A stretch of 64,000 nt of DNA from Paludibacteraceae bacterium (GTDB lineage: Bacteria; Bacteroidota; Bacteroidia; Bacteroidales; Paludibacteraceae): positions 1 through 64,000 of the forward strand of contig JAFTCC010000038.1 of NCBI GenBank assembly GCA_017454915.1, given 5' to 3'. Shown here one piece after another: positions 5,723 through 53,766 of the stretch. Position 1 is the first letter of the stretch; each line of letters begins with the position of its first letter. The notes under the pieces are model-generated. The model saw only the letters and a program-made list of their open reading frames with translations. It was not told the DNA's origin and did not search any database. The position numbers were made by a program, and so were the translations under genes.

Positions 5723-6808
5723 TTATCGAACATCTTTCACAAGGCGAACACTAAAACCAACAGACCTTAGAAAATCGACACTAAAGTCATAATTAACATA
5801 AGCTCCATTGCTATTATATATCCTCCCAGCTCTAAAACAACCTGCTCTGTATTCATAATCATACCAATGCTCATATGGATTAGGGATTCTTTTTTCAGTT
5901 CCCTCGGGAAGCCAATACCCCATGCTATTGTTAAAATCAGTAACAGAGTCTCTACGGCCTGCCTCTGGTAAAAAAACAGCACCTAACTTTCCAAGTATTT
6001 GCCACTGGCTATCAGTAAAAAAATTATAATTAAAATTATTAAAACCATTATATTCAATCGTCAATTCTTCTGGTGCTACAAAATTATCACAAAACAATAT
6101 TATCCCATTTGTTCCATTAACATTAGCCAAGCACCACTTATTATGCATCATAATATAACTAAGTTCAGCTTGTTTAATCATACGCCACTCACCTATTGCA
6201 TAATCGTCTATGGTATTATATTGTCCCCAATCTGCATATACCCAACTAACAGAATAAGAAGAAGATAGAGAACAATTTCCACAATTTTTTGGCCGATAGT
6301 CTTCTGGATTAGTTGATACACTCCACGGCTGGTAGGCCTTAGCCTCACTGTCCCAGCCACTCGTGCCCCAGCCGAAAAGGTCTATCCAGCCATCGTAGGT
6401 CTCTGAAATGAGTAAATTATCGCATTTTACGCCATTCCAATAGACATTGCCGTAATCTGCATTACCGACGTAGTCCCACTGATTTTCCGCAAAACGCCAT
6501 GTTCCGGGCTGCGTCGTGCCGTCAGCGCAGAGGTGTGAGCCAAGAGCGGCATTATACTGCAAGTTGCCTGGAGAAAAATACACTTGGTCACCGTTTTCGT
6601 TGACAGTGAATGGCCTCGGTGTGTAATTGCCGCACTGCTGCGCCGGAATTTCGTCTGCCATGGCGGTAGGATATGCCAGATAGGTAGGATTAAGGGCACG
6701 CTGCTCCTCGGTCAGAGTCGTGGCGTTATACGGTAATACGAGTTCGTCTTGCGCATGCGACAAAACACAGAAGGTTACCAATAACAATAATGTGATTTTA
6801 CGAGTCAT
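5723..6808 (-). CDS. FISUMP-like exported protein with lectin-like C-terminal fold
   Basis: 361 residues with a signal peptide (cleavage likely after LSHA, residue 19). Residues 78-85 read FSPGNLQY and 140-152 GWIDLFGWGTSGW, and the end reads GFSVRLVKDVR. These phrases mark the large paralogous Bacteroidetes family related to the Fibrobacter FISUMP domain, thought to have a C-type-lectin-like fold. Ligands are unknown. The first half (to about residue 169) is GC-richer and the second half (below about 6300) is markedly AT-rich. Structured RNA copy A ends 72 nt upstream on the same strand. Confidence 0.8.
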   Translation of the reverse strand: MTRKITLLLLVTFCVLSHAQDELVLPYNATTLTEEQRALNPTYLAYPTAMADEIPAQQCGNYTPRPFTVNENGDQVYFSPGNLQYNAALGSHLCADGTTQPGTWRFAENQWDYVGNADYGNVYWNGVKCDNLLISETYDGWIDLFGWGTSGWDSEAKAYQPWSVSTNPEDYRPKNCGNCSLSSSYSVSWVYADWGQYNTIDDYAIGEWRMIKQAELSYIMMHNKWCLANVNGTNGIILFCDNFVAPEELTIEYNGFNNFNYNFFTDSQWQILGKLGAVFLPEAGRRDSVTDFNNSMGYWLPEGTEKRIPNPYEHWYDYEYRAGCFRAGRIYNSNGAYVNYDFSVDFLRSVGFSVRLVKDVR

Positions 6809-6880
6809 GGAAGTATTTGCTATTTACGAATTAACACTAAGTCTAATAAGTCCTTAGAAAGATACTAAAGGACAAGACAC

Positions 6881-6913
6881 AAAAAAAAGCGTGAAACACA
6901 TTTGTTTTCACAC
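6881..6913 (-). terminator. Intrinsic terminator of RNA copy A
   Basis: On the minus strand GTGTGAAA pairs with TTTCACGC (one G-U pair) around a 9-nt loop, followed by eight U. The homologous copy at 53213-53245 has G-C in place of the G-U pair. Confidence 0.85.
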
Positions 6914-7154
6914 TAATGAAGGTCTTCGCATACCCATGTCAAGTAGAAAACAGCAGATGCCTCACGCCCGATATGATAACCCACCCACTGTCCCCGAGGG
7001 GCGTGAGGAAAGGATATAACATATCCTACGCGGACATTCATTGCTGCTGTCACGTCTTGACATTAGAAAAGTTGCGAAGTTTTCATTAGTCGTGAACAGC
7101 TCCAATAAACGCCTTTAATTATGTCCTTTGCCACCGGAGTGCATGACTCCTATG
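6881..7154 (-). ncRNA. Structured RNA of unknown family, copy A
   Basis: Homologous over its length to 53213-53516. Transcription runs leftward from the promoter at 7161-7191 to a U8 tract at 6888-6881. Helices (plus coordinates): 7136-7140/7146-7150; 7046-7054/7091-7100 with one bulged base; 7012-7017/7021-7026 (GGATAT with a 3-nt loop); 6960-6969/6999-7008 (10 bp); terminator stem 6889-6896/6906-6913. Conserved unpaired blocks include AATAAACGCCTTT (7104-7116) and GTTGCGAA (7071-7078). No reading frame is open in both copies. The start of the FISUMP-like gene is 72 nt beyond the terminator, so the RNA could be a free small RNA or a leader. I could not match it to a known family. Confidence 0.75.
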
Positions 7155-7160
7155 ACAAGG

Positions 7161-7191
7161 CAAAGTTAATGATATTTTTTTATATTGCAAA
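7161..7191 (-). promoter_or_regulatory. Promoter of RNA copy A
   Basis: On the minus strand TTTG (7191-7188) lies 19 nt from TAACTTTG (7168-7161). This matches the Bacteroidetes consensus TTTG-N19-21-TAnnTTTG exactly. The start of transcription is expected near 7154. Confidence 0.8.
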
Positions 7192-7240
7192 ATGCCAATT
7201 GAAAACGTGGTTACGGGCTATAAAACGGAAACTAAAACCC

Positions 7241-7380
7241 ATTCGCTTAATTAGCGAACAAAAAATCTAAGGACTTAAAAGGACTAAAAGGAGAAAAAAC
7301 TTCGCCCAATTCGTGTCATTCGTGAACAATAACCAAAACCCGCAAACGTTCTTACGGACACGACATGTCGTGTCCCTACA
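7241..7380. repeat. Short repeats and 20-bp palindrome shared with 53590-53766
   Basis: This stretch contains AAGGACTTAAAAGGACTAAAAGG, CAATTCGTGTCATTCGTGAA and the perfect palindrome GGACACGACATGTCGTGTCC (7356-7375) followed by CTACAG. The same phrases occur in the same order after RNA copy B. No coding region is visible. They may be part of one mobile or duplicated intergenic module. Confidence 0.75.
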
Positions 7381-7400
7381 GGACAAATTCCGTAGCAATC

Positions 7401-27822: not shown

Positions 27823-29103
27823 ATGCAGCAAGGATATTCAAAATCCAACATTCTGCCCATAGCAGTGATGTTTCTTTTGTTTTTTATGATAGCCTTTGTG
27901 ACCAATCTCGCAGGCTCGATGGGCGTGATTGTCAAAAATCAGTTTGAGGTTAGCGATACCCTATCCCAATTAGGCACGGCAGCAAACTTTATAGCCTATG
28001 CATTTATGGGCATACCTGCCGGTTATCTGCTTAGGCGTCGAGGCTACAAAGTTACCTCACTCATGGCAGTTGCTTTTGGCCTTGCCGGTGTTGGAATTCA
28101 GTGGTATTCCGGGTCAGCCGGTTCATTCGCCATATACCTTGTCGGAGCATTTATTGCAGGCTTCTCTATGTGTATGCTTAATGTGGTTGTCAATCCGATG
28201 CTTAACACTCTTGGAGGCGGTGGAAACCGCGGCAATCAACTTTGCCTGATTGGTGGTTCGTTTAATTCTGTTGGCGGTACGATAACCCCTATTCTGGTTG
28301 GTTACTTGATAGGCAATGAAGTGGCTAAAGCCAACATAGAGGACGCAGCGCCGGTTATGATTATCGCTTTGGTAACATTCGTAATCGCCGGATTAGTCAT
28401 TTTCTTCACAGCGATACCAGAGCCTCACATGGAAACAGCCGAAGAGAAAAAAGAACGCCTTGCCAACAGACGTCAGCACAGGAGGGAACAATATGGTCCG
28501 CTCGCATTTCTGCACTTTACACTCGGTGCGATAGCAATATTTTTCTACGTGGGCGTAGAGGTCGGCATTCCTAATTTTGCAAACCTGTATATGTCAAATG
28601 ACCCGCTCATAGGTCCTAAAGTTGCTGGTAGCGTAGTGAGCGTCTATTGGCTTCTAATGCTTTGCGGACGTATGATTGGCGGTGCCATAGGAGCAAAAAT
28701 TTCTGCAAGAACGATGCTTACAACGGTTAGTGCCACAGCAATCTGCTTCCTCATACTCGTCATGGTTCTTCCATCAACTCTCACCGTCAACCTGTTTGGT
28801 CAACAACTTCCAGTGTCAATGATATTTGTCATGTTGTCTGGTTTGTGCACCTCGGTGATGTGGGGCAATATATTTAATCTATCCACTGAAGGGTTAGGCA
28901 AATACACTCCTGCCGCATCAGGCATATTCATGGCACTTGTTTGCGGAGGTGGCATCTTACCTCTAATTCAAGGCTTGGTGGCAGACCACGCACACAATAT
29001 GCTGCTGTGCTACATAGTACCAATTGCGGCACTGGCATACATTCTCTTCTATGCGACGACTGGCAGCAAAAATGTCAACGAAGACGCCGCACAAAGCAAA
29101 TAG
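27823..29103 (+). CDS. Major-facilitator sugar permease (FucP-like)
   Basis: 426 residues, about 12 transmembrane segments. Start chosen at ATG 27823 because the promoter ends at 27781. NRGNQLCLIGGSFNSVGGT (about 135-155) and GIPAGYLLRRRGYK are typical of the FucP/GluP proton-sugar symporters. A charged cytoplasmic loop (EEKKERLANRRQHRREQYG) separates the two halves. It is followed 34 nt later by a ROK kinase, so the pair probably imports and phosphorylates a hexose or amino sugar. Confidence 0.85.
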   Translation: MQQGYSKSNILPIAVMFLLFFMIAFVTNLAGSMGVIVKNQFEVSDTLSQLGTAANFIAYAFMGIPAGYLLRRRGYKVTSLMAVAFGLAGVGIQWYSGSAGSFAIYLVGAFIAGFSMCMLNVVVNPMLNTLGGGGNRGNQLCLIGGSFNSVGGTITPILVGYLIGNEVAKANIEDAAPVMIIALVTFVIAGLVIFFTAIPEPHMETAEEKKERLANRRQHRREQYGPLAFLHFTLGAIAIFFYVGVEVGIPNFANLYMSNDPLIGPKVAGSVVSVYWLLMLCGRMIGGAIGAKISARTMLTTVSATAICFLILVMVLPSTLTVNLFGQQLPVSMIFVMLSGLCTSVMWGNIFNLSTEGLGKYTPAASGIFMALVCGGGILPLIQGLVADHAHNMLLCYIVPIAALAYILFYATTGSKNVNEDAAQSK

Positions 29104-52371: not shown

Positions 52372-53133
52372 TCATTTATTTTCCTCAAATACCTTAAATG
52401 CACTATCACGGAATTGTTTTTCATTAAAACGGACTTGCATTTCTTGTTCATGGCTAATTGTATCAACTACTTTTTCCACAACATCTTTTTTACTGACCTT
52501 TATCGCCATGTACATAGTATAAAAGCCCTCCGCATCTGGTAATTGGGTTTGTTTACGGCATACCTCATATGTCTCATTTATCAATTGTTGGATAACCTGA
52601 CGGCCTGCACTTTCTATATGTTGACGTGCATATTCACCATCTTCTGTTTCCATCTGATCAAAATAATCATCTATTACTTGCTGGTATTTGCCCTGCAATT
52701 TTTGCAAAAGTTGTTGGCGAGTAGAACGAAGTAATGTAGTAGGTGTTAAATTGGTTTGACTTGCTTTAAAACGTTTTACGCCTGTTGCATAGAACCAGTC
52801 CGCATCATCATAGGTCTGACAAGGCATTTCTGCTACCATATTCATTTTGCGAATTTGCTCTTCTTCTGCTTCTCTTTGAGCTTGCTTAGCAGCTTGTTTT
52901 TCTTGCTCTAAAGCCGCCTTAGCTTTCGCTTCGTCTTTCTCGCGTTGGACATTTTTGAGACTATCCATCTTCATCTGATGGCGAAGTTCTGCTTCTTCTT
53001 TTTGCTGTTGTTGCAGCATTTCCCATTGAACCTTTTTAGCGTTTTTTTTGTCTTTACGACTTTGCGCATTTATTGGCATTGCGATTGCCAATGACATTGC
53101 TACCATAGTAGCGATTAATGAAAACTTTTTCAT
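52372..53133 (-). CDS. Exported LPP20-like protein 1 with coiled-coil insert
   Basis: 253 residues. Signal peptide 1-23 (PINAQ). Residues about 25-95 are a strongly charged coiled coil (KKNAKKVQWEMLQQQQKEEA, KQAAKQAQREAEEEQI). The C-terminal domain (TLLRSTRQQLLQKLQGKYQQ, DDYFDQMETEDGEYA, IQQLINETYEVCRKQ, MYMAIKVSKKDVVEKV) matches the next gene. It is the first gene of the minus-strand operon, 80 nt after the terminator of RNA copy B, with no other promoter evident. Confidence 0.75.
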   Translation of the reverse strand: MKKFSLIATMVAMSLAIAMPINAQSRKDKKNAKKVQWEMLQQQQKEEAELRHQMKMDSLKNVQREKDEAKAKAALEQEKQAAKQAQREAEEEQIRKMNMVAEMPCQTYDDADWFYATGVKRFKASQTNLTPTTLLRSTRQQLLQKLQGKYQQVIDDYFDQMETEDGEYARQHIESAGRQVIQQLINETYEVCRKQTQLPDAEGFYTMYMAIKVSKKDVVEKVVDTISHEQEMQVRFNEKQFRDSAFKVFEENK

Positions 53134-53212
53134 AATGTTAAATAATTTTATTTGTTTGTGCCTACTCTTGGGGATTTTCGGCGGCTTCCGTTTTTAGTTG
53201 AGGTATAGACAC

Positions 53213-53245
53213 AAAAAAAAGCGTGAAAAACATTTGCTTTCACGC
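53213..53245 (-). terminator. Intrinsic terminator of RNA copy B
   Basis: GCGTGAAA pairs with TTTCACGC (8 Watson-Crick pairs) followed on the minus strand by U8. Confidence 0.87.
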
Positions 53246-53516
53246 CAATCAAGGTATTCGCAGAACCTAAACCATGCAATAAAAAACAGATGAATCCCAC
53301 GCCCGATATGTAAACCCACCTCCCACCATCAGGCGTGAGACCCGGATATGACATATCCACGAGAGACATTCATTGTTACTGTTGCGACATGGTTTTGATA
53401 GAAGTTGCGAATTTCTGATTGGTCGCAAAACAGCGTCAATAAACGCCTTTTAATATGTCCTCACGTTTTACGTCAGCGAGCGACGGCTTGCATTTTAGCC
53501 CGCAAGTTAGGCTTTG
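53213..53516 (-). ncRNA. Structured RNA of unknown family, copy B
   Basis: Homologue of 6881-7154 and more GC-stable. Helices (plus coordinates): 53471-53474/53482-53485; 53487-53491/53502-53506; 53379-53388/53422-53433 with two bulged bases; 53344-53349/53353-53358 (GGATAT, 3-nt loop); 53295-53307/53328-53340 (13 bp with two G-U); terminator 53221-53228/53238-53245 followed by eight U. The helix at 53384-53388 is GCGAC/GTCGC where copy A has CACG/CGTG, a two-sided change. A 73-codon frame overlaps it but is not kept in copy A. The RNA ends 80 nt before the LPP20-like operon. Confidence 0.78.
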
Positions 53517-53522
53517 ACGCTG

Positions 53523-53553
53523 CAAAGATACAAAAAAATTACTATTTAACAAT
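53523..53553 (-). promoter_or_regulatory. Promoter of RNA copy B
   Basis: On the minus strand ATTG (53553-53550), 19 nt, TATCTTTG (53530-53523). It occupies the same place relative to the RNA as the copy A promoter, although the sequence between the boxes is unrelated. Confidence 0.75.
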
Positions 53554-53589: not shown

Positions 53590-53766
53590 GGATTTGTATT
53601 CGCTTAATTCGTGTAATTCGTGAAAAAAAATCGAAGGACTTAAAGGACGCGCTTTTTCTCCCTAAGGACTTAAAGGACTGGAAGGACTTCGAGGAGTATA
53701 ATTAGGGAAATTCGCGAACCAAGACACGCAGACATTGTTAGGACACGACATGTCGTGTCCCTACAG
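53590..53766. repeat. Short repeats and 20-bp palindrome shared with 7241-7380
   Basis: Contains TTAATTCGTGTAATTCGTGAA, then AAGGACTTAAAGGAC twice with GGAAGGACTTCGAGG, and the palindrome GGACACGACATGTCGTGTCC (53741-53760) followed by CTACAG. The order matches the block next to RNA copy A. No gene is visible between here and miaA. Confidence 0.75.

Follow-up and report, generated by a model that had tools for sequence, protein, structure and literature searches.

The window, a stretch of 64,000 nt from the genome of a Paludibacteraceae bacterium (2.19 Mb in 66 contigs, 88% complete), contains two copies, A and B, of a structured leader RNA. Both are located on the (-) strand between a promoter and a gene for an exported protein:

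7161-7192 (-): promoter of copy A, with TTTTG at 7188-7192 and TAACTTTG at 7161-7168 (from the sequence)
6873-7126 (-): conserved leader RNA of copy A, from GGACAUA to slightly beyond the U-run (from alignment and homologue search)
6881-6913 (-): intrinsic terminator of copy A, hairpin 6889-6913 and U8 6881-6888 (family covariation z -12.3)
5723-6808 (-): gene downstream of copy A, 361-aa exported protein, 70 nt past the leader
53523-53552 (-): promoter of copy B, with TTG at 53550-53552 and TATCTTTG at 53523-53530 (from the sequence)
53205-53460 (-): leader RNA of copy B, with P1, P2, P3a, P3b, P3c, P4', P5 and the anti-terminator (see below) all there
53213-53245 (-): intrinsic terminator of copy B, hairpin 53221-53245 and U8 53213-53220 (from the sequence)
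52372-53133 (-): gene downstream of copy B, 253-aa exported protein, ~76 nt past the leader

Copies A and B share 75% identity over ~250 nt (E=2.8e-38 in a whole-genome sequence search), and no ORF of at least 80 aa overlaps either of them. This agrees with the preliminary description, which had recognized two related noncoding copies, each ending in a hairpin followed by U8. It had also correctly seen that one pair of the terminator stem changes from G-U to G-C between the copies. Promoters had been assigned to the same place in both. Each copy does have one, but the spacing to the conserved part is unequal, with a longer 5' extension in copy B. The folding energies lie well under those of dinucleotide shuffles (z -6.9 for copy A, z -4.3 for copy B). 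No Rfam 15 model reached its gathering score in the window, and even a search with E up to 10 gave nothing close to threshold, which bears out the view that neither copy belongs to a known RNA family. An ARAGORN scan of the window found no tRNA or tmRNA. For the products of both downstream genes, no Pfam or NCBIfam family was found. A 25-nt repeat that contains a perfect palindrome (GACACGACATGTCGTGTC) is present in identical form at 7357-7381 (+) and 53742-53766 (+), ~200-280 nt upstream of copies A and B; by chance, none would be expected.

The RNA family and its position in front of genes

Only the two copies of the window had been counted at first; in the source genome, a sequence search revealed seven clear copies and a model-based search a total of ten. 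Wider searches employed a sequence-only model built from 12 members (R1), whose E-values are rough. R1 matched in 281 of 358 Paludibacteraceae genomes belonging to 26 of 33 genera. Sixteen fully scored genomes carry 4-16 copies each; copy numbers from the large searches are lower bounds, because only about five candidates were scored per genome. Order-wide, 76 of 393 Bacteroidales genomes from some thirty families had matches, with E-values down to 1e-22 outside Paludibacteraceae. Of 296 genomes sampled across the phylum, nearly all from outside the order, the source genome was the sole match. Related named contigs belong to Paludibacteraceae or to uncultured Bacteroidales and come from rumen and gut. 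The cultured species Bacteroides finegoldii has a member as well, which was found with another member as query. It is situated at about 28284-28543 of record NZ_OY725942.1. R1 covers this element completely (E=1.1e-14), and the pairings of P1, P2, P3a, P3b, P3c and the anti-terminator are kept with altered sequence. Viral contig and phage collections contained no member, and plasmid searches returned a single record labelled plasmid, in B. finegoldii; phage or plasmid cargo was rejected on these grounds. Two loci are arranged unusually. In L167, two same-strand elements (about 1189-1435 and 1650-1895) lie ~220 nt apart before one gene, and the second carries its own promoter-like site. In L072 (5943-6248, (-)), a long insertion in the apical loop divides the element; both flanking halves are conserved.

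The gene following the element (gene calls were simple ORFs) is co-oriented in 201 of 210 members, at a median distance of 57 nt past the element. Against a one-to-one expectation, this amounts to ~1e-48 by our own arithmetic. The gene upstream of these 210 members can have either orientation. Within the 150 nt preceding the element, 170 of 207 members carry the motif TAnnTTTG (19 in shuffled sequences), and 125 of 207 the full promoter TTG-N17-23-TAnnTTTG (2.3 in shuffled sequences). The 60 nt behind the terminator contain TAnnTTTG in one of 207 members; they lack it after copy A. U-runs of at least 5 are found in 182 of 210 members. The family members are cis-acting 5' leaders of the genes downstream. 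Gene orientation and promoter position thereby speak against the free-standing structured RNA that the initial view implied, and a stand-alone sRNA was rejected for the same two reasons. Since the promoter lies upstream of the element and almost never between terminator and gene, the gene appears to require read-through: Most probably, its transcription begins ahead of the element and continues past the terminator. ATG-started ORFs inside the element scatter in length and stop position. As none is conserved, leader-peptide attenuation is unlikely, and the absence of a conserved short ORF led to the rejection of a coding element or a ribosome-mediated leader-peptide attenuator.

In a subset of loci, a small H-type pseudoknot precedes the element at a distance of 0-2 nt. 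At copy B, it comprises 53460-53485 (-) with the sequence CGUCGCUCGCUGACG-UAAAAC-GUGAG. It consists of a hairpin, an A-rich linker and a tail that pairs with the hairpin loop, and changes in the loop are accompanied by changes in the tail. The same type is found in L031, L033, L036, L038, L163, L049, L027 and L167, sometimes as two in tandem. A scan for upstream pseudoknots detected 40 in 213 compared to 19 in shuffles. The pseudoknot is an optional upstream module, real in a subset and not a fixed part of the element. It had no Rfam match in the loci scanned. When 12 other loci were scanned with Rfam, only DUF805b RNA (RF02914) was detected, at a separate place, and together with the lack of a match in the window this excluded a known Rfam RNA. 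DUF805b RNA is situated at L033:1463-1497 (-) and L099:2947-2982 (-), between the terminator of the element and the start codon, and DUF805b-like sequences are present in about ten loci (L004, L032, L040, L044, L054, L064, L089, L095).

Alternative helices and their covariation

Two sets of helices were found, a go fold and a stop fold. In the 249-column model, the go fold comprises P1 (13-23:83-93), P2 (about 28-37:71-80), HP1 (43-47:57-61) and the anti-terminator (156-163:230-237). The stop fold contains P3a (37-45:205-213), P3b (48-54:195-201), P3c (62-70:178-186), P5b, P5 (88-94:161-167) and the terminator. P4' (100-106:148-154; z -13.3) is compatible with both. In copy A, the helices are located as follows (segment-swap z unless stated otherwise):

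7103-7113 (-): 5' strand of P1, GGCGUUUAUUG, partner 7033-7043 (CAAUGAAUGUC); z -10.7
7090-7098 (-): 5' strand of P2, partner 7046-7055; z -20.0
7066-7084 (-): HP1 hairpin (GAAAA/UUUUC) with loop CUUCGCAAC; z -10.9
6924-6930 (-): partner of the HP1 loop CUUCGCAAC in P3b; z -18.3
7082-7090 (-): 5' strand of the long-range helix P3a, partner 6912-6920; mutual information z 34, z -42.7
7056-7065 (-): 5' strand of the long-range helix P3c, partner about 6938-6946; variable in sequence with pairing maintained; z -37.1
7032-7038 (-): 5' strand of P5, AAUGUCC, partner about 6957-6963; bases common with P1; z -10.5
6961-6968 (-): anti-terminator strand GGCGUGAG, partner 6888-6895 (UUCACGCU), which is the terminator 3' arm; z -8.6

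The two sets compete at several places. P1 and P5 require one common strand, P5 and the anti-terminator another, and the terminator 3' arm is common to terminator and anti-terminator, which are mutually exclusive by sequence and energy alone. RNAalifold on the first 13 sequences returned partial helices only, because the two folds overlap; therefore, mutual information (139 aligned members) and a segment-swap permutation test (102 sequences below 75% identity) were needed. A single static structure was discarded in view of the partial helices and the overlap. In the segment-swap test, both sides of each competition yielded signals: P1 (-10.7) versus P5 (-10.5), the terminator (-12.3) versus the anti-terminator (-8.6), and P2 (-20.0) and HP1 (-10.9) versus P3a (-42.7) and P3c (-37.1), with P3b at -18.3. 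Six control segment pairs gave z between -0.3 and +1.9. The anti-terminator is 96% paired, and its column pair 161:232 reached z 16.4 in mutual information. For P6 and P3ext, covariation is weak (z -2.5), and they were not relied on. Pair counting found 75% and 85% of the cells of the two folds paired, with 492 and 295 two-sided changes compared to 222 and 138 in shuffles. The pair counts of each fold exceed those of nearly all shuffles and of all slid versions, the latter being far lower. This covariation supports two mutually exclusive folds. A subgroup formed by L057, L088 and their relatives is atypical in that the 5' arm of the terminator is not clean; it would need a different stop structure.

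Among ~100-200 homologues, at least ten helices covary far over the controls, which substantiates the selection on RNA structure that had been proposed from two copies. The helix in which a two-sided change had been noticed is P2, confirmed by its family-wide z. The three fixed blocks regarded as possible binding or recognition sites are, on the (-) strand, both strands of P1 (GGCGUUUAUU, CAAUGAAUGUC) and the HP1 loop (UUCGCAAC), i.e. mostly strands of alternative helices. The preliminary description was right about structured helices and overlooked the second, competing fold.

Constrained folding placed both folds ~27-30 kcal/mol under shuffles in 60 of 60 sequences. Energies that disregard pseudoknots and tertiary contacts put the median gap between the two folds at 0.0 kcal/mol across 216 sequences, with the middle half spanning -4.3 to +3.4. 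In the calculated energies, the two folds thus appear balanced, and such a balance is a requirement of a switch. P2 and P3 could partly coexist as a pseudoknot, and HP1 and the G+C-closed HP2 could kiss through P3b.

Downstream genes and proposed mechanism of control

Pfam, NCBIfam and PADLOC scans of ~180 downstream proteins revealed no common pathway, which ruled out a metabolic regulon and is unusual for a metabolite riboswitch. By a simple heuristic, signal-peptide-like starts occur in 51% of the first genes and in 31% of the other genes of the same loci (p=5e-6). Recurrent surface or secreted kinds are BspA leucine-rich proteins, Lcl_C/Fib_succ_major secreted proteins and sulfatase-type envelope enzymes. 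Defence genes recur, too (type III methyltransferases, DndC, BrxP, HKD+Snf2); the categories behind the element include restriction, Dnd and BREX. Other recurrent kinds are small helix-turn-helix proteins and CXXX radical-SAM target peptides (TIGR04117). Genes for such Cys-Xaa-Xaa-Xaa repeat peptides follow the element in four genera (L011, L052, L121, L192), and TIGR04117 was confirmed in the two loci tested, L011 and L052. Helix-turn-helix proteins of 70-90 aa are encoded behind the element in several families (L117, L218, L225, L241, L248:4182-4415); by eye, the small protein behind the element in B. finegoldii resembles this family. The overall picture seems to be one of accessory, surface and defence functions that share a general control. 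Such a mixture argues against a feedback-type metabolite riboswitch; the likely trigger would then be either a protein regulator or a small signal of a general nature.

The best explanation, as judged from comparative sequence analysis, would be a riboswitch-like attenuator of Bacteroidales that is apparently undescribed. We consider it likely that the element attenuates transcription in cis from the 5' leader and uses two mutually exclusive folds to do so. The local 5' hairpin (P1-P2-HP1) could arise first during transcription. In the go fold, this hairpin would hold and leave the GGCGUGGG strand free, which would then pair with the terminator 3' arm as anti-terminator and allow RNA polymerase to read into the gene. 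In the stop fold, the 5' part would open and pair lengthwise with the 3' part, forming a long rod (P3a-P3b-P3c-P5b-P5). The rod would consume the GGCGUGGG strand in P5, whereupon the terminator hairpin with its U-run would form and transcription would stop. A putative signal would tip the balance, most likely a ligand or a protein bound by the conserved core, for which the HP1/HP2 loops and the P5/P4' junction are candidates.

A possible, less favoured reading is a leader for processive or local antitermination controlled by a protein (UpxY/RfaH/NusG-type or another RNA-binding protein) instead of a ligand-binding RNA. Its anatomy would be identical and only the trigger would differ; functionally mixed targets, exported proteins and defence genes among them, are easier to reconcile with a globally acting regulatory protein than with a metabolite, and in Bacteroides, UpxY proteins are known to regulate antitermination. 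However, conservation is strongest in an extensive RNA with two folds, a terminator and an anti-terminator of its own, which exceeds what a protein target would need. It is improbable that the element is passive and constitutive, i.e. an insulating or stabilizing 5' leader with a leaky terminator that responds to no signal: This would fit targets without common pathway and the fact that no ligand or regulator has been identified, but a passive leader would need only one helix set, whereas here two exclusive sets, balanced in energy, are each kept by compensatory change. Free-standing trans-acting small RNAs that merely happen to lie upstream of genes are very unlikely, since despite a promoter and a terminator at each copy, many paralogues per genome as in the FopS family and a short leader transcript that could act in trans, too, nothing would require them to point towards the next gene in 201 of 210 cases at a median of 57 nt, with a promoter motif in the 60 nt after the element in just one of 207.

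Relation to known RNAs and significance

The attenuator proposed here resembles terminator/anti-terminator riboswitches and attenuators in its 5' leader position, its conserved structured core and the competition between terminator and anti-terminator. In contrast to these in general, nearly the whole 250-nt RNA refolds, the targets are functionally unrelated, no ligand is known, and 4-16 copies per genome occur within one order. DUF805b RNA, too, is cis-regulatory and occurs in leaders of organisms that carry the new element, but it is a small separate element (35-nt model) that does not overlap the new one. Bacteroidales-1 RNA (RF01693) and 6S-type RNAs have the same promoter type as the new element. 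They are known structured RNAs of Bacteroidales (PMC2864571). The new RNA differs from them as a leader with a gene behind it and without Rfam match. FopS sRNAs, a further multi-copy RNA family in Bacteroidales, are reportedly trans-acting and bound by RbpB, which by description sets them apart from the new element. FopS is a paralogous sRNA family of Bacteroides thetaiotaomicron (PMC11697453). An unnamed entry such as HMP2_1881, a 108-bp Bacteroidetes motif close to radical SAM domains (PMC8040213), could conceivably be a fragment of the new element.

In open-licence full texts on Bacteroidetes leaders and structured RNAs, no account of the element was found. Its kind, a terminator/anti-terminator leader, is known, and the family is absent from Rfam 15. 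With neither an Rfam 15 family nor a paper found, the element therefore most likely constitutes a new candidate class of attenuators or riboswitches. Tentatively, it might represent a riboswitch class that is new and very common in Bacteroidales, with a general signal as ligand, related to stress, envelope, phage or community. On such a reading, defence systems, surface proteins and secreted peptides might perhaps be coordinated via refolding of nearly the whole RNA.

With its two covariation-supported folds, the element is a good model for bistable RNAs. If our interpretation is right, it would be among the commonest regulatory RNAs in a dominant order of gut and rumen bacteria. Restriction-modification, phosphorothioation, BREX, BspA, CXXX peptides and envelope enzymes would share one switch, and identifying its trigger would tell which cue these cells perceive before investing in defence and an altered surface.
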